Shown: positions 5,686-57,155 of the stretch, piece by piece | Numbering within the stretch: position 1 is the stretch's first letter | Layout: each line of letters begins with the position of its first letter | From: Aquabacterium lacunae | Lineage (GTDB): Bacteria > Pseudomonadota > Gammaproteobacteria > Burkholderiales > Burkholderiaceae_C | Direction: 5' to 3' | DNA: 64,000 nucleotides | Assembly: GCF_004310865.1 (NCBI RefSeq) | Contig: NZ_SIXI01000001.1 | Span: 248,001 to 312,000, forward strand | Made by a program: the position numbers and the translations under genes | Notes under the pieces: generated by a model | Told to the model about the DNA's origin: nothing | The model's input: only the letters and a program-made list of their open reading frames with translations | Databases searched by the model: none

Positions 5686-6888
5686 ATGGAACAACTCAAA
5701 CAAGGCGCAGACGCGCTTTTCATTCTTCTGGGCGCCGTGATGGTCCTGGCGATGCACGCGGGCTTCGCCTTCCTCGAACTCGGCACGGTTCGGCACAAAA
5801 ACCAGGTCAATGCCCTGGTCAAGATCCTGGTGGACTTCTGCGTGTCGACCATTGCGTACTTCTTCGTGGGCTACACCATTGCCTACGGCGTTGACTTCTA
5901 TGCAGGCGCCGGCACCCTGGCGCAGAACAACGGCTACGCGCTGGTCAAGTTCTTCTTCCTGCTGACCTTTGCTGCTGCCATCCCGGCCATCATTTCGGGC
6001 GGCATTGCCGAGCGCGCCAAGTTCGGCCCGCAACTGGCGGCCACTGCCGTGATCGTGGGCGTGTTCTACCCCCTGTGCGAAGGCGCCATCTGGGCCAACA
6101 AGTTCGGCATCGCCGACTGGCTGGCGGCCGTGGGCGGCGCGCCCATGCACGACTTTGCCGGCTCGGTGGTGGTGCATGCCTTCGGTGGCTGGATCGCGCT
6201 GCCGGCCGTGCTGATCCTGGGTGCGCGTCGCAACCGCTACCGCAAGAACGGTGAAATGTCAGCCCACCCGCCGTCGAGCATCCCCTTCCTGGCCCTGGGT
6301 TCCTGGATCCTGGCCGTGGGCTGGTTCGGCTTCAACGTGATGAGCGCCCAGACCATCGACAAGATCTCGGGCCTGGTGGCCGTGAACTCGCTGATGGCCC
6401 TGGTGGGCGGCACCCTGGTGGCCGTGCTGATGGGCAAGAACGACCCTGGCTTTGCCTACAACGGCCCCCTGGCCGGTCTGGTGGCCGTGTGCGCGGGCTC
6501 CGACATCTTCCACCCGGCCGGCGCGCTGGCCGTGGGTGCCATTGCTGGCGGCATCTTCGTGATCATGTTCACCCTGGTGCAGAACAAGTGGAAGATCGAC
6601 GACGTGCTGGGCGTCTGGCCGCTGCACGGCCTGTGTGGCGCCTGGGGCGGCATTGCAGCCGGCATCTTCGGCATGGAATCACTGGGCGGCGCTGGCGGCG
6701 TGAGCCTGCTGACCCAGACCGTGGGCACCCTGGTGGTGGTGGGCTTTGCGCTGGTCACCGGCTTCCTGGTGTATGGCGTGCTGAACAAGGTGATGGGCCT
6801 GCGCCTGTCGCAAGAGGAAGAGTTCGAAGGCGCCGACCTGTCGATCCACCGCATCAAGGCCACCCCGGAGCACGAAACTTCGTGGTGA
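5686..6888 (+). CDS. amtB: Ammonium channel AmtB
   Basis: A 400-residue Amt/Mep/Rh-family channel with about eleven membrane helices that conducts ammonium across the inner membrane. Both pore histidines are present (in FAGSVVVHAFGG and in WPLHGLCGAWGG), as is the Amt signature DFAGS. Unlike E. coli AmtB there is no cleavable signal peptide: the first helix begins almost at once and carries GFAFLELGTVRHKNQ, typical of the shorter, signal-less Amt clade. No glnK (PII) gene is adjacent. The NtrC-type site and sigma-54 promoter upstream, and a terminator downstream, make it a single-gene nitrogen-regulated unit. Confidence 0.95.
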   Translation: MEQLKQGADALFILLGAVMVLAMHAGFAFLELGTVRHKNQVNALVKILVDFCVSTIAYFFVGYTIAYGVDFYAGAGTLAQNNGYALVKFFFLLTFAAAIPAIISGGIAERAKFGPQLAATAVIVGVFYPLCEGAIWANKFGIADWLAAVGGAPMHDFAGSVVVHAFGGWIALPAVLILGARRNRYRKNGEMSAHPPSSIPFLALGSWILAVGWFGFNVMSAQTIDKISGLVAVNSLMALVGGTLVAVLMGKNDPGFAYNGPLAGLVAVCAGSDIFHPAGALAVGAIAGGIFVIMFTLVQNKWKIDDVLGVWPLHGLCGAWGGIAAGIFGMESLGGAGGVSLLTQTVGTLVVVGFALVTGFLVYGVLNKVMGLRLSQEEEFEGADLSIHRIKATPEHETSW

Positions 6889-6932
6889 GGCCTGGGGCTG
6901 CCTGCCCTCAGGCGGCACCCTCCCCTGCACGC

Positions 6933-6956
6933 AACCCGGCTTCGGCCGGGTTTTTT
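6933..6956 (+). terminator. Terminator of amtB
   Basis: AACCCGGC-TTCG-GCCGGGTT is an 8-bp stem with a stable TTCG tetraloop, continuing into a run of T residues (6951-6956). It lies 45 bases after the amtB stop. Confidence 0.9.
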
Positions 6957-44637: not shown

Positions 44638-46527
44638 TCAGCGCCAGCTGCTGGCCACCAGGTTCACCAGCGTCTTGGGCGCATCGGCCGGCAGGCTGGT
44701 CGCACCTGCAGGTGGCGTGAAGCTGGCCATGGCCGACACCAGGGCGTCGACCTTGCTGGCGCTCAGGCTCTTGCCGTCCATGGCCCTGAAGGTCTCCACG
44801 CGGTAGGCGCTGCCCTTGTACCAGTCCTTCACCGTGACCTGGTCCTGCGAGCCCAGCACGCTGACCTGCAGGTCAGTGCCCACGCGCTTGAACCACAACT
44901 GGTTGGACGCACTGGCATTGAAACGTGCCGTGTCACTGACCAGCAAGGTGCTGTCGTTTTCCACGATCACGTCCTTGCCGAAGCCGGCATTGAACTCGTA
45001 CAGGTCGGCGCCTTTACCGCCCAACAAACTGTCGTTGCCGGCACCGCCGTTGAGGGTGTCATTGCCGCTCAGGCCGCTCAGGGTGTCGTCCCCGATGTCG
45101 CCGACCAGCGCCTCCCGACCCGATGTGCCCGTGAGATTCAACGCGGCCGCGCGCTTCCACACGTCAGCCGTGGACAGCACCGTGCCATCGGCGAACTTCA
45201 GGGCGCCGATCCCCGCACTGGCCATCTGAATCACCACCGACTCCGACCGGCCTTTGAAGCCGACCCGGGTGTCGGTGTTGGTGCTCAAGGGCGTGGTGTC
45301 CACCCGCTGAATGACCAGGTCAGCAGCGTTCAGCCCCGCACCCAACACCACGGCATCGCCGTCGAACATGCGCACGGTGTCGTTGCCGTCGCCCACATTG
45401 AACAGGATGGTGTCGCGCCCAGACCCCATCACCAGGTCATTGCCCGCGCCACCTCGCAAGGTGTCGGCCAACGAGTCGTAAGACAAAGCGCTGTAGCCAT
45501 AGGCGCTCACGTCTTCGTAGGCATACAGGCTGTCGTTGCCCGCCCCGCCCGAGATGAAGTCGGCGCCCTCCTGCCCGCGGATGAGGTCATTGCCACTGCC
45601 GCCCCACACCGTGTCGGCGCGTGAGCTGCCAATGACGGTCTCCCCGACGGCTTGGGTGCGATGGTCCAGGTTGACCGACACCGGCGCACGGCCCGTCAGG
45701 CGAGCGTTGGCGATGTCGGTGGCATCCCACACCTCACCGTTGGCGAATTCCACACGGTTGAGCCCGCCCACCGTCAGGCTGCCCGGCTGGTCGGTGAACG
45801 ACAGCACCTGACGCTTCTTTTCGCCATCCTGCCAGCCCAGCTGCACATTCGACGGGTCGAGGCCCACGCCCAGTTTGACCGTCAAGGTGCCGCCATAGCC
45901 CCAGGCGCCGGGGTCGCGGCCGTAAAACACCAGTTGGTCATAGGCCTCGTCGAAACCGTCACCCGCGTTGTAGACCACCGTGGTGGCCTGGATGGTGTCG
46001 TTGCCTCGGCCGCCAGCCACCTCGGTGCCCGTCAGCACATCGTCACCAGCGGTGGGTTGTGCGCCGGCGGTGGCCACGGGCAGGCTCAACACCTGCATCT
46101 GCCCCGCCAAAGAAGCCTGCAACGCCGACGCCTGGATCACAGTGCCATCGGCAAACACCAATTGGCGCAAACCGGTGCGCGCAGCATCAGCAGGATCAGA
46201 GAATGACGACAGGCCTTCAAAGCGGCCCAGCTCAATGGCACCACTGCCATCGGCCATGGCCAGCACCAGGCTGTCGCTGGTATAGGCCCCCGAACGGTAG
46301 ATCAGCACCAGGTCAGAGGGCTTCACCCCCGCTGCCAGTCGAACGTCGAACGTGCCTGTGCCAGGGGCGCGCGTGACGCGGTCGTCACCCTGGCCCGGGC
46401 CCCACTCCACGGTCACGGCCGTGCCTTGAAGTTGCACCACATCGTTGCCCGCACTGGCTTGCACGGTGTCGCCAGCCTGGGCCAGCAAGGTGTCGGCACC
46501 AGAGGTGCCCGCGATGGTCTGCGCCAT
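44638..46527 (-). CDS. RTX (hemolysin-type calcium-binding repeat) protein
   Basis: A 629-residue protein rich in Asp and Gly with scattered RTX nonapeptides (GG-x-G-x-D-x-L-x). Examples are GGSGNDLIRGQEGADFISGG, GGAGNDSLYAYED, GSGRDTILFNVGDGND and LSGNDTLNGGAGNDSLLGG. There is no Sec signal peptide; such proteins usually leave by type I secretion with an uncleaved C-terminal signal and fold on binding Ca2+. No catalytic domain is evident and no type I secretion genes are in the window. It lies between thyA and folA in the opposite orientation. Confidence 0.82.
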   Translation of the reverse strand: MAQTIAGTSGADTLLAQAGDTVQASAGNDVVQLQGTAVTVEWGPGQGDDRVTRAPGTGTFDVRLAAGVKPSDLVLIYRSGAYTSDSLVLAMADGSGAIELGRFEGLSSFSDPADAARTGLRQLVFADGTVIQASALQASLAGQMQVLSLPVATAGAQPTAGDDVLTGTEVAGGRGNDTIQATTVVYNAGDGFDEAYDQLVFYGRDPGAWGYGGTLTVKLGVGLDPSNVQLGWQDGEKKRQVLSFTDQPGSLTVGGLNRVEFANGEVWDATDIANARLTGRAPVSVNLDHRTQAVGETVIGSSRADTVWGGSGNDLIRGQEGADFISGGAGNDSLYAYEDVSAYGYSALSYDSLADTLRGGAGNDLVMGSGRDTILFNVGDGNDTVRMFDGDAVVLGAGLNAADLVIQRVDTTPLSTNTDTRVGFKGRSESVVIQMASAGIGALKFADGTVLSTADVWKRAAALNLTGTSGREALVGDIGDDTLSGLSGNDTLNGGAGNDSLLGGKGADLYEFNAGFGKDVIVENDSTLLVSDTARFNASASNQLWFKRVGTDLQVSVLGSQDQVTVKDWYKGSAYRVETFRAMDGKSLSASKVDALVSAMASFTPPAGATSLPADAPKTLVNLVASSWR

Positions 46528-48011: not shown

Positions 48012-48136
48012 GCCGGCGCAAGCTGGGTGGCGCAGAGGCGGGCACAATACGGCTCGCCTCTCCGAAGGGCCCGTCAGCCGTCACGCCATGGCGGCCCTGC
48101 TGAACCGAGATGGCCTCACCCCACCTCACCCTGCCC

Positions 48137-48916
48137 ATGAAGCTCGCCACCTGGAACGTCAACTCCCTGTCTGTCCGACTGCCTCAGCTGATCGACTGGC
48201 TGGCCGCCAACCCGGTCGATGCCCTGGTGCTGCAGGAAACCAAGCTGACCGACGACAAGTTCCCGCAGGCCGACCTGGAAGCGGCGGGCTATCACGCCCA
48301 CTGGTTCGGCCAGAAAACCTACAACGGCGTGGCCCTGCTCACGCGCGAGCCGGCCACCGACCCGGTGCGCAACATCCCCGGGTTGGCCGACGAGCAGGCC
48401 CGCGTGATCGCGGCCACCGTGCCCCACGCCACCCACGGGCCCGTGCGGGTGATCGGCGCTTACTTCCCCAATGGACAGGCGCCGGGCAGCGACAAGTTCG
48501 CCTACAAGATGGGCTGGCTGGAAGCGTTGAATGCCTGGGTGAAAGACGAGCTGTCGCGCCACCCGCGCCTGGTGCTGATGGGCGACTACAACATCGCCCC
48601 CACCGACGCCGACGTGTACGACCCCGTGGGATGGAAAGACCAGATCCACTGCACGGTCGAAGAACGCGAGCACTTCCAGCGCCTGCTGGGGCTGGGCCTG
48701 CACGACGCCTTCCGCCTGTTCGAACAGGCCCCCAAGCTGTGGAGCTGGTGGGACTACCGCAACCTGGCCTTCCGCAAGAACCAGGGCCTGCGCATCGACC
48801 ACATCCTGGTCAGCGAGGCCCTGAAGCCCGCGGTCAGCGCCTGCGTGATCGACAAGGCCCCGCGCAAGAACGAACGCCCGTCGGACCACGCCCCGGTGGT
48901 GGTCACGCTGGCCTGA
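48137..48916 (+). CDS. xth: Exodeoxyribonuclease III
   Basis: A 259-residue AP endonuclease / 3'-5' exonuclease of the ExoIII class. It begins with the canonical MKLATWNVNSLSVRLPQL, then LVLQETKLTDDKFP (metal-binding Glu), LMGDYNIAPTDADVYDP and the C-terminal RIDHILVS and PSDHAPVVV. ATG 48137 is preferred over an in-frame ATG nine codons upstream. The -35 box of the attenuator described next lies two bases after its stop. Confidence 0.95.
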   Translation: MKLATWNVNSLSVRLPQLIDWLAANPVDALVLQETKLTDDKFPQADLEAAGYHAHWFGQKTYNGVALLTREPATDPVRNIPGLADEQARVIAATVPHATHGPVRVIGAYFPNGQAPGSDKFAYKMGWLEALNAWVKDELSRHPRLVLMGDYNIAPTDADVYDPVGWKDQIHCTVEEREHFQRLLGLGLHDAFRLFEQAPKLWSWWDYRNLAFRKNQGLRIDHILVSEALKPAVSACVIDKAPRKNERPSDHAPVVVTLA

Positions 48917-48917
48917 C

Positions 48918-48947
48918 TTGACGTGCACGGCGCCAGCCCCTTACATT
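48918..48947 (+). promoter_or_regulatory. Promoter of the Trp-rich leader
   Basis: TTGACG (48918-48923) and TACATT (48942-48947) are 18 bases apart (TTACAT one base earlier gives 17). Initiation would fall about seven bases after the -10, at or next to the A of the leader ATG (48954). The leader mRNA would then be leaderless or nearly so. Confidence 0.6.
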
Positions 48948-48953
48948 GAAGGC

Positions 48954-49034
48954 ATGAACTCGCTGCACGTCGTTTCCCAACACACCGCCTCGTGGCGCTG
49001 GTGGCCCTGCCCACCGGCGAGCATGCGCGTGTGA
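48954..49034 (+). CDS. Trp-rich leader peptide of an attenuator
   Basis: A 26-codon open frame with three tryptophan codons in four positions (WRWW at residues 14-17: codons at 48993, 48999 and 49002), followed by PCPP. Trp is the rarest residue in most proteins, so this density in a tiny frame with its own promoter is strong evidence for a trpL-type sensor peptide. The second and third Trp codons lie inside RNA segment 1, GCTGGTGG (48997-49004). That segment can pair with CCACCGGC (49011-49018). A ribosome waiting for Trp-tRNA would melt this hairpin. I infer the function from architecture; no homologous leader was compared. Confidence 0.72.
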   Translation: MNSLHVVSQHTASWRWWPCPPASMRV

Positions 49035-49072
49035 ACAGCCCCAGCAGCTGAACCCCCGACCACCATGCCGCC
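49016..49072 (+). promoter_or_regulatory. Predicted antiterminator pairing of the Trp attenuator
   Basis: GGCGAGCATG (49016-49025) is complementary to CATGCCGCC (49064-49072) over nine base pairs with one bulged A. The left arm overlaps segment 2 of the leader hairpin, and the right arm is the 5' half of the terminator. The three pairings exclude each other as in classical trp attenuation: 1:2 at 48997-49018, 2:3 here and 3:4 at 49064-49087. Confidence 0.65.
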
Positions 49073-49094
49073 ACACCGGGCGGCATGTGTGTTT
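49061..49094 (+). terminator. Terminator hairpin of the Trp attenuator
   Basis: CATGCCGCC (49064-49072) pairs perfectly with GGCGGCATG (49079-49087) around ACACCG. CAC/GTG can extend the stem past a one-base bulge, followed by TTT-C-T. The T-run is short but the stem is very stable. It lies between the Trp-rich leader frame and the 74-residue downstream gene. Confidence 0.68.
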
Positions 49095-49160
49095 CTGGCA
49101 GGCAGTTCCTGAAGCATCCATGGCCGCCCTGGCTGACACCCCCGCCTTCAGGAGATCACC

Positions 49161-49385
49161 ATGCATGCTTTCAACACTGCGTTCGACGCCTCGTTCCTGC
49201 AGCCCCTCGTGGTGGCTTGCGACACCGTCCAGGAAGCCCTGACCCGTGCCGACCAGGCCCGCCGCCAGGTGGCACTGGCCCAGGCCGAACTGGCCCATTA
49301 CGAAGCCCAGGCCCAAGCGCTGCGCCAACAGGTCGCTGCCCCCGCCACCGCACCAGCCCCTCAGCGCCCGGTCAACCAGCGCTGA
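49161..49385 (+). CDS. Small protein of unknown function under the Trp attenuator
   Basis: A 74-residue protein starting at ATG 49161, nine bases after a strong AGGAG. Residues 20-58 are predicted to form one long amphipathic, coiled-coil-like helix (Ala/Gln/Glu/Arg rich: ADQARRQVALAQAELAHYEA). The tail (59-74) is Ala/Pro-rich. There is no Trp codon, signal peptide or membrane segment. I recognise no family. It is the only gene between the attenuator and convergent mutY, whose 3' end it overlaps by 25 bases. A protein-interaction or RNA-linked role is possible but unproven. Confidence 0.65.
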   Translation: MHAFNTAFDASFLQPLVVACDTVQEALTRADQARRQVALAQAELAHYEAQAQALRQQVAAPATAPAPQRPVNQR

Positions 49386-50491
49386 AACGGGGCGGGAAAG
49401 CCCAGCGTGGCCATCCCTTCAGCGCTGCGGGGGCTTGGCCCGGCCGCCACGGGCTCCATGGCAGCCACCGGGTCAGCGGCCTGTGACGCTTGCAGCACAG
49501 CCTGCACGTCCACTTGGGCCGGCACGCTGAGGCGGCTGAGGTGCAGCACCCAGTCCAGGTGGGTCAGCACATGGGTGATGGGCGGCTGTGTGTCCACGCG
49601 CTCGGGCTGCAGGGCCTGCTGCACCCGCAGGGCGGCGCCTTCACTGGCCCACATGGGGAAGGTCCACAGGCCCGCCCACACGCCTGTGTCGGGGCGTTGT
49701 GCCACCCAGGTCTGTCCGCCCTGCTCGATCCACAGGCACCAGCTTTCACGGCGCGAGCGCTTGAGTTTGCGGGTCTTGACCGGCAACTCGGCGGCACGCC
49801 CGGCCTGCAGCCCCAGGCATTGCGGCTGCCAGGGGCACAGCAGGCACTGCGGCTTGCGCGGCGTGCACACGGTGGCCCCCAGGTCCATCAGGCCCTGGGT
49901 GTAGGCCGGCATGTCGGCACCCTGCTCGGGCACCAGCAGGCTGGCGGCGTCCCACAGCCAGCGCTCGTGGCGAGTCACCGACAGGTCGCCCTCCCAGTTC
50001 AGCGCCCGGGTCAGCACGCGTTTCACGTTGCCATCGAGGATGGTCACCCGCTCATCGAAGCAAAAGCCCGCGATGGCCGCCGCGGTGGACCGGCCAATGC
50101 CCGGCAAGGTGGCCAGCACCTCGGCCTGGCGCGGGAAGGTGCCGCCGTGCGCGCTCACCACGGCCTGCGCACAACGGTGCAGGTTGCGGGCGCGGCTGTA
50201 GTAGCCCAGCCCGGCCCACTGGGCCAGCACCTCGTCCAGGCTGGCTGCGGCCAGATCGGCCACGGTGGGCCACAGCGCCAGGAACCGGTCGTAGTAGCCC
50301 AGCACCGTGCTCACCTGGGTCTGCTGCAGCATGATCTCTGACAGCCACACCCGGTAAGGGTCACGGGTGTTCTGCCAGGGCAGGTGGTGGCGCCCATGCT
50401 GGCGCTGCCAGGTCACCAGGCGTTCAGACAGGGTCGGGCCCATGCCCTGGGCGGCTGCCATCAGGCGAACCTGCAGATCCGGCGTGCTCAC
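49361..50491 (-). CDS. mutY: A/G-specific adenine glycosylase
   Basis: MutY removes A mispaired with 8-oxoguanine. The 376-residue protein has the HhH-GPD domain (about 25-230) with LPWQNTRDPYRVWLSEIMLQ and TQV (catalytic Glu), LPGIGRSTAAAIAGFCF and VTILDGNVKRVLTRA. The iron-sulfur cysteines are in CTPRKPQCLLCPWQPQC. A C-terminal NUDIX-like 8-oxoG recognition domain follows. The start is GTG 50491; ATG 50461 is possible. It is the last gene of the unit mutM-dynamin-mutY. Confidence 0.95.
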   Translation of the reverse strand: MSTPDLQVRLMAAAQGMGPTLSERLVTWQRQHGRHHLPWQNTRDPYRVWLSEIMLQQTQVSTVLGYYDRFLALWPTVADLAAASLDEVLAQWAGLGYYSRARNLHRCAQAVVSAHGGTFPRQAEVLATLPGIGRSTAAAIAGFCFDERVTILDGNVKRVLTRALNWEGDLSVTRHERWLWDAASLLVPEQGADMPAYTQGLMDLGATVCTPRKPQCLLCPWQPQCLGLQAGRAAELPVKTRKLKRSRRESWCLWIEQGGQTWVAQRPDTGVWAGLWTFPMWASEGAALRVQQALQPERVDTQPPITHVLTHLDWVLHLSRLSVPAQVDVQAVLQASQAADPVAAMEPVAAGPSPRSAEGMATLGFPAPFQRWLTGR

Positions 50492-57078: not shown

Positions 57079-57155
57079 AGGGGAGTCGCCAAGTTGGTTA
57101 AGGCATCGGATTTTGATTCCGACATACGAGGGTTCGAATCCTTCCTCCCCTGCCA
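57079..57155 (+). tRNA. tRNA-Gln (anticodon TTG)
   Basis: A 77-base tRNA. The acceptor stem AGGGGAG (57079-57085) pairs with CTCCCCT (57145-57151), discriminator G and encoded CCA (57153-57155) follow. The anticodon stem TCGGA/TCCGA holds the loop TTTTGAT with anticodon TTG (57113-57115), and the T loop reads GGTTCGAATCC. Its place between ispE and prs is conserved in many betaproteobacteria. Confidence 0.96.

Follow-up and report, generated by a model that had tools for sequence, protein, structure and literature searches.

This locus raises the question of why a tryptophan-type attenuator should stand before a gene with no role in Trp synthesis or transport. It lies in a stretch of 64,000 nucleotides from Aquabacterium lacunae, hereafter the window, where the attenuator and a 74-aa open reading frame (ORF) are placed between an exonuclease III-family gene (exoIII) and mutY. 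An earlier note had described a complete device of the trp kind controlling an orphan protein. It is rather likely that the region represents a ribosome-mediated Trp attenuator belonging to a module of leader plus AroQ/PchB-type gene, and that the window copy is a decaying remnant of it. All carriers of the module seen so far are Aquabacterium or members of the same genus. The features of the region, in window coordinates, are the following:

48110..48916, plus strand: exonuclease III-family gene exoIII (Pfam PF03372, Exo_endo_phos), flanking the leader upstream, with synteny across the genus
48918..48947, plus strand: sigma-70-like promoter TTGACG-18-TACATT, from a promoter scan
48954..49034, plus strand: leader peptide ORF MNSLHVVSQHTASWRWWPCPPASMRV, 26 codons
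48993..49004, plus strand: Trp-Arg-Trp-Trp control codons
48996..49019, plus strand: stem 1:2, 48996-49004 with 49011-49019, 9 bp
49016..49072, plus strand: antiterminator 2:3, 49021-49025 with 49064-49068 and 49016-49019 with 49069-49072
49064..49095, plus strand: terminator 3:4, 49064-49072 with 49079-49087, tail TGTGTTTC
49106..49154, plus strand: possible Shine-Dalgarno-masking stem, TTCCTGAAG at 49106-49114 with CTTCAGGAG at 49146-49154
49161..49385, plus strand: 74-aa protein ORF, by sequence a truncated AroQ/PchB chorismate-mutase-family derivative, helix 1 only
49361..50491, minus strand: mutY (Pfam HhH-GPD and NUDIX_4), convergent, overlapping the tail of the 74-aa ORF by 25 nt

The distance between exoIII and mutY is at most 139 nt in 27 of the 35 genus genomes with both genes on one contig, and among the same 35 it reaches 450 nt in the window's own genome (handle G000), 572 nt in its sister genome (G034), and 1.9-4.4 kb in six genomes. 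G000 and G034 are sisters in the exoIII tree with support of 96/86 (22 of 30 rows in the tree). Elsewhere in the window, the minus strand at 44638-46527 carries a 629-aa ORF with GGxGND-type repeats that by eye looks like an RTX calcium-binding protein.

The Leader and Its Alternative Stems

The promoter has no second match of its type within 48800-49500, where 50 shuffles gave a mean of 0.0, and its -10 element ends 6 nt upstream of the leader ATG, from which the transcript probably starts at or beside the leader AUG. The 26-codon frame with its WRWW block is present as described before and reads SWRWWPC around the control codons, with three Trp within four codons (at 48993, 48999, and 49002, counted from the ATG).

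The three mutually exclusive pairings 1:2, 2:3, and 3:4 are all possible in this leader. The terminator forms the 9 bp attributed to it; however, stem 1:2 is one pair longer than the earlier note had it, also reaching 9 bp, and stem 2:3, described as a 9-bp pairing, consists of 5 + 4 bp around one bulged base and not of a continuous helix. In comparison with 20,000 dinucleotide shuffles, with stem positions fixed after the structure was known, stem 1:2 (-16.8 kcal/mol) is equalled in 0.07% and the terminator stem in 0.055%, whereas the 2:3 duplex (-15.6 kcal/mol) is equalled in 9.4% and is the weakest of the three; all three stems jointly occur in 0 of 20,000. Moreover, the folding of the 140-nt leader beats 198 of 200 shuffles (z -2.5). 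The U-tract of the terminator is poor (UGUGUUUC, with the tail following 49087), compared with runs of 4-9 consecutive T in relatives, which speaks for decay of the switch. The parts described before can thus be seen in the sequence, but with such a U-tract it was generous to call the device complete.

Between the terminator and the start codon, a CCTG element is kept in 12 of 12 aligned sequences, most of which allow it to pair with the Shine-Dalgarno region; the stem of the window has nine contiguous pairs, including one G-U. Summed over the rows, the stems are longer than in 5,000 mononucleotide shuffles, but only six of the 12 rows, which are related to one another, are below 0.05 individually, and the alignment of the 12 sequences gives no covariation support for the pairing. 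A second regulatory layer by masking of the Shine-Dalgarno region is, on this basis, suggestive only. Rfam (4227 models, release 15) gave over the whole window a gathering-score match only for a tRNA at 57079 and, at E up to 10 in 48880-49420, only two sub-threshold matches, both outside the leader and neither a Trp leader (mir-8813, 18.7 of 58 bits; Mu-gpT-DE, 18 of 49 bits, at 49127-49163).

A Chorismate-Mutase-Family Gene behind the Same Leader

In the sister genome, the gap between exoIII and mutY holds a leader, MDRMLNANLMVTGSWWRCLVSGGMRS (SWWRC), a terminator of GCCGCC/GGCGGC and T6, and the gene for a protein of 122 aa that matches Pfam CM_2 with an E-value of 6.9e-17 (2.4e-19 for a second relative). 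By sequence and predicted fold, this protein is closest to the isochorismate-pyruvate lyase PchB, followed by E. coli chorismate mutase; the best of its five models has a pLDDT of 83.6, the other four 60-67, with Foldseek TM values to PchB of 0.69 / 0.86. It has a lysine aligned with K42 of PchB, a residue whose mutants are named in PDB titles. NCBIfam NF005475 (isochorismate lyase) gave 67 and 78.3 bits, against a cut-off of 126, for the two of the ten full-length proteins that were scanned.

The window protein is identical to the N-terminal half of the G034 protein at 18 of 42 residues, with an E-value of 1e-7 in pairwise comparison and 7e-6 on genome scale. On its own, it gives no Pfam CM_2 match at E up to 10, so that its homology is indirect, through the relatives. 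Furthermore, used as a query it found only itself in 299 family genomes and gave no match in the genome contig collection, and it was recognised because of the synteny with G034. By its sequence, the 74-aa protein is thus a truncated AroQ/PchB chorismate-mutase-family derivative and not the orphan that it had been taken for; in relatives, this device stands before a full-length gene. The view that the attenuator precedes a gene outside the trp set is upheld, with clustered Trp codons and a terminator in 11 relatives: the downstream gene of the module is a CM_2 gene or its remnant, and never one for Trp synthesis or transport.

Distribution of the Module

The G034 protein has a match (E<=0.001) in 18 of 42 genomes of the genus, with a close full-length copy in ten (G034, the source of the query, counted); the remaining matches are three divergent PchB-like copies (33-35% identical), truncated copies in G024 and G000, and three weak ones in long frames. 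A clustered-Trp leader, a terminator, and a promoter precede all ten close full-length copies as well as the copies of G024 and G000. The best promoter site upstream of each of these 12 leaders scores 9 of 12 with a spacing of 17-18, values obtained without a shuffle control, and its -10 element lies only 6-9 nt from the leader ATG in all 12, so that the transcript is probably leaderless. Tandem Trp codons occur in the leaders of the 11 relatives, and the leader peptides differ among modules outside the Trp block.

The module is located directly 3' of exoIII in G000, G034, G002, and G007; in the last two, other DNA of about 3 kb separates it from mutY. The other eight modules occupy a second genomic site, where a gene start of one and the same kind comes after each; in L149 the gene that follows is Polysacc_synt_2, a PMT-type glycosyltransferase gene stands on the upstream side, and L153 looks similar by eye. 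At this polysaccharide-gene site, G024 (locus L106, reverse complement) has a truncated CM-family gene of 66 aa (1519-1719) behind a RWWRCP leader (1308-1388) and a T9 terminator. The same leaders are found in eight named records (L146-L153), six of Aquabacterium and two Burkholderiales MAGs, which probably duplicate some of the genomes with G handles and were not counted twice.

The gene family itself extends beyond the genus, with matches in 97 of 399 family genomes sampled (including the genus member G008) and also in Variovorax, Pseudomonas, and others. Upstream regions were scanned at 110 loci (30 loci of the 97 matching family genomes and 80 named loci), nine of which are the module. Among the 101 non-module regions, a chance Trp pair lies within 420 nt in 15 and a weak terminator within 300 nt in one (L203), and no region combines the two; on this sample, the attenuator was rejected as a property of the whole chorismate-mutase gene family. 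Nor do the divergent PchB-like copies (G027, G017, G003) qualify as modules, lacking a terminator within 300 nt upstream; chance-like Trp pairs precede two of these copies (L103 WW, L105 WSW; the third is L104). At the DNA level, the 516-nt region used as a query matched 16 of the 42 genus genomes at E<=0.001, one of them that of the window, and apart from itself all matches were short; those covering the leader (query 111-143) were in L015, L016, and L021, and neither L015 nor L021 has the layout of a module.

Conservation of the RNA

The sequence TGGTGGCGC is invariant in the 11 relatives, and a 6-bp stem 1:2 and a 7-bp terminator form in all ten aligned rows. Both-sided changes occur at two terminator pairs among these ten relatives, and the antiterminator is paired in 98% of cells, hardly varying. 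Thus, the stems expected to covary do pair in relatives but vary so little that covariation is weak and neither proves nor refutes the antiterminator. In the window, the leader is altered in the 1:2 stem and segment 2, with CGCTGGTGG/CCACCGGCG in place of GCTGCC/GGCGGC; stems that have changed while retaining the exclusive pairings may reflect selection, although the poor U-tract points to decay.

A covariance model (R1) built from the ten aligned relatives, with G034 and G000 held out, recovers G034 at 48.9 bits, whereas the best non-module scores are 35.9 bits in the 42 genus genomes and 36.1 bits in the 399 family genomes. In the genus, 23 genomes have a match at E<=0.05, 11 of which are modules; in the family, 44 have a match at E<=0.01, and only that of G008 (101.5 bits) is a module. 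The genus match at 35.9 bits, in G014, was discarded as a further module since it has no Trp ORF. Among the matches listed, 47 weaker loci (L267-L313) are by eye terminators or coding DNA; two close Trp codons in a short frame occur in 12 of them, none judged to be such a leader. The window leader was not recovered in the genus-wide run, scoring 17.0 bits against 16.5 bits for a terminator at 6868-6956 of the window, a terminator-like hairpin followed by TTTTTT. What places it in the module is its synteny, its Trp codons, the stems that it forms itself, and the homology of the gene behind it.

This low score would also suit the simplest alternative, in which there is no regulation and a chance Trp-rich ORF is followed by an ordinary exoIII terminator. 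Short Trp-rich ORFs do arise by chance in GC-rich DNA, and the window contains ten on both strands with three Trp within five codons. However, only the leader ORF among these ten has a terminator-like hairpin within 110 nt on its 3' side, the three stems never occurred jointly in the shuffles, and the same layout recurs in 11 relatives at two loci, all of which makes coincidence extremely improbable.

State of the Window Copy

Everything beyond helix 1 is absent from the window protein, its C-terminal half having been lost, and in G034 numbering R25 and R42 are replaced by L and K53 by R. The arginines at these aligned positions are presumably catalytic, and from its sequence the 74-aa protein is probably non-catalytic. 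The genome keeps a housekeeping chorismate mutase in PheA (CM_2, PDT, and ACT domains). The lost C-terminal half, the lost putative catalytic residues, and the poor U-tract indicate that the window copy is most likely a decaying remnant, in which the switch would be outliving the enzyme.

The rates of divergence bear on the same point. Identity between G000 and G034 is 90% for exoIII, 64% for mutY, and 44% over 55 residues for the chorismate-mutase part, and between G034 and G007 it is 75% for exoIII (an underestimate, from stop-to-stop frames), 75% for mutY, and 74% for the chorismate mutase, with 32 of 42 residues of helix 1 kept, compared with 18 of 42 for G034 and the window. The leader DNA is identical at 71 of 133 aligned bases in G000/G034 and 84 of 135 in G034/G007. 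Thus, the 44% against 90% marks the window protein as unusually fast-evolving, although mutY is also faster on the G000 side and part of the divergence may be local.

The shortened protein could instead have been repurposed as a small helical protein that is produced when Trp runs short and, for instance, docks on helix 1 of another AroQ domain. The 74-aa ORF is intact, with a good Shine-Dalgarno sequence, and its codon bias of 0.389 is like that of the neighbouring genes (0.26-0.55), which made up the reference; this gene-like bias is as compatible with a gene still in use as with one that began to decay recently. Its predicted structure is a single confident helix at residues 23-59 (mean pLDDT of the model 75.6), and the truncated copy of G024 likewise retains leader and terminator. 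Nevertheless, the few residues kept relative to the sister genome, the failure of the short form to match anything but itself in the searches above, and the weakened U-tract make this reading unlikely. Decay of the window protein is judged likelier than a new role, for which the G024 truncation still leaves room.

Proposed Mechanism and Metabolic Implications

From the parts, their conservation, the synteny, and the homology seen in the sequence, we infer each regulatory step as follows. The RNA would start at or next to the leader AUG. When charged tRNA-Trp is present, the ribosome would reach the stop codon beside segment 2 and hairpin 3:4 would form, giving a terminated RNA of about 130-140 nt. 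Under a shortage of Trp-tRNA, the ribosome would stall on the Trp codons and mask segment 1, segment 2 would capture segment 3, and the polymerase would read into the downstream gene. Classical attenuation logic thus predicts that Trp starvation turns the downstream gene on.

The trpE genes of the genus have a Trp leader of their own, of the AWPW type, at 27 of 30 loci (of the three without it, one is a cut locus and two come from genomes that have a further trpE copy outside the sample), so that the module's leader would be an additional device of the Trp type, placed before a non-trp gene. An example is the trpE leader MFLPRKFTKGCNDRGAWPWRR of the window's genome; such leaders (L239, ORF 1229-1339 on the reverse complement of the locus, and 26 other loci) start 6-7 nt after a TACACT box where inspected. 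By eye, none of 12 regions before trpE has a clear T-run terminator, and trpE attenuation may therefore work differently.

Judging from the gene family, it seems odd that a chorismate-consuming enzyme should be made under Trp shortage, when it would compete with TrpE. Either the task of the enzyme is not to supply Phe and Tyr synthesis, or Trp shortage acts as a wider signal of aromatic starvation. A more speculative and quite improbable proposal is that Trp starvation induces a protein of the chorismate branch so as to channel chorismate into Trp synthesis, with the helix 1 remnant as a dominant partner that would bind the AroQ domain of PheA and dampen it while Trp is scarce, a function that would have evolved twice. 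Helix 1 is the helix through which AroQ dimers intertwine. If true, this would be an attenuator-controlled metabolic brake that has arisen twice from an enzyme, in the window and in G024.

Comparison with Known Systems

The trpL attenuators of E. coli and Sinorhizobium meliloti (trpL/rnTrpL) share with the module a short ORF with clustered Trp codons and exclusive stems 1:2, 2:3, and 3:4, and that of S. meliloti also shares the probably leaderless start. In Sinorhizobium, the 5' end of rnTrpL is the trpL ATG (PMC7298713), and rnTrpL and its peptide peTrpL are reported to act in trans. The terminated leader RNA or leader peptide of the module could act likewise, in which case the downstream gene would hardly matter; the probably leaderless short RNA resembles rnTrpL, and the leader is kept in two genomes with a cut-down gene. 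However, the leader precedes one and the same gene family in 12 of 12 cases and its peptide varies outside the Trp block, so that action in trans appears very unlikely, and control of the adjacent gene is preferred. On that reading, the regulatory RNA seems to have outlived its enzyme in the same two genomes. Unlike the trpL attenuators, the module precedes a chorismate-mutase-family gene and not trpE.

With respect to the enzymes, the fold predicted for the G034 protein is that of PchB and AroQ (PDB 2h9d, 3ret, 5vht), and the protein has the lysine aligned with K42; the two full-length relatives scanned score under the isochorismate-lyase cut-off, and the window copy, by contrast, has one helix only. 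No description of a Trp attenuator on a chorismate mutase was found in the titles and abstract starts of the open papers searched. Leader attenuators of the pheA type precede chorismate mutase/prephenate dehydratase and have Phe control codons. They have in common with the module the placing of a chorismate mutase under ribosome-mediated attenuation; however, the control codons of the module are Trp, the product of the competing branch, and the module thus links a switch of the Trp-sensing type to a chorismate-mutase-family gene, that is, to a branch that would compete with Trp synthesis.
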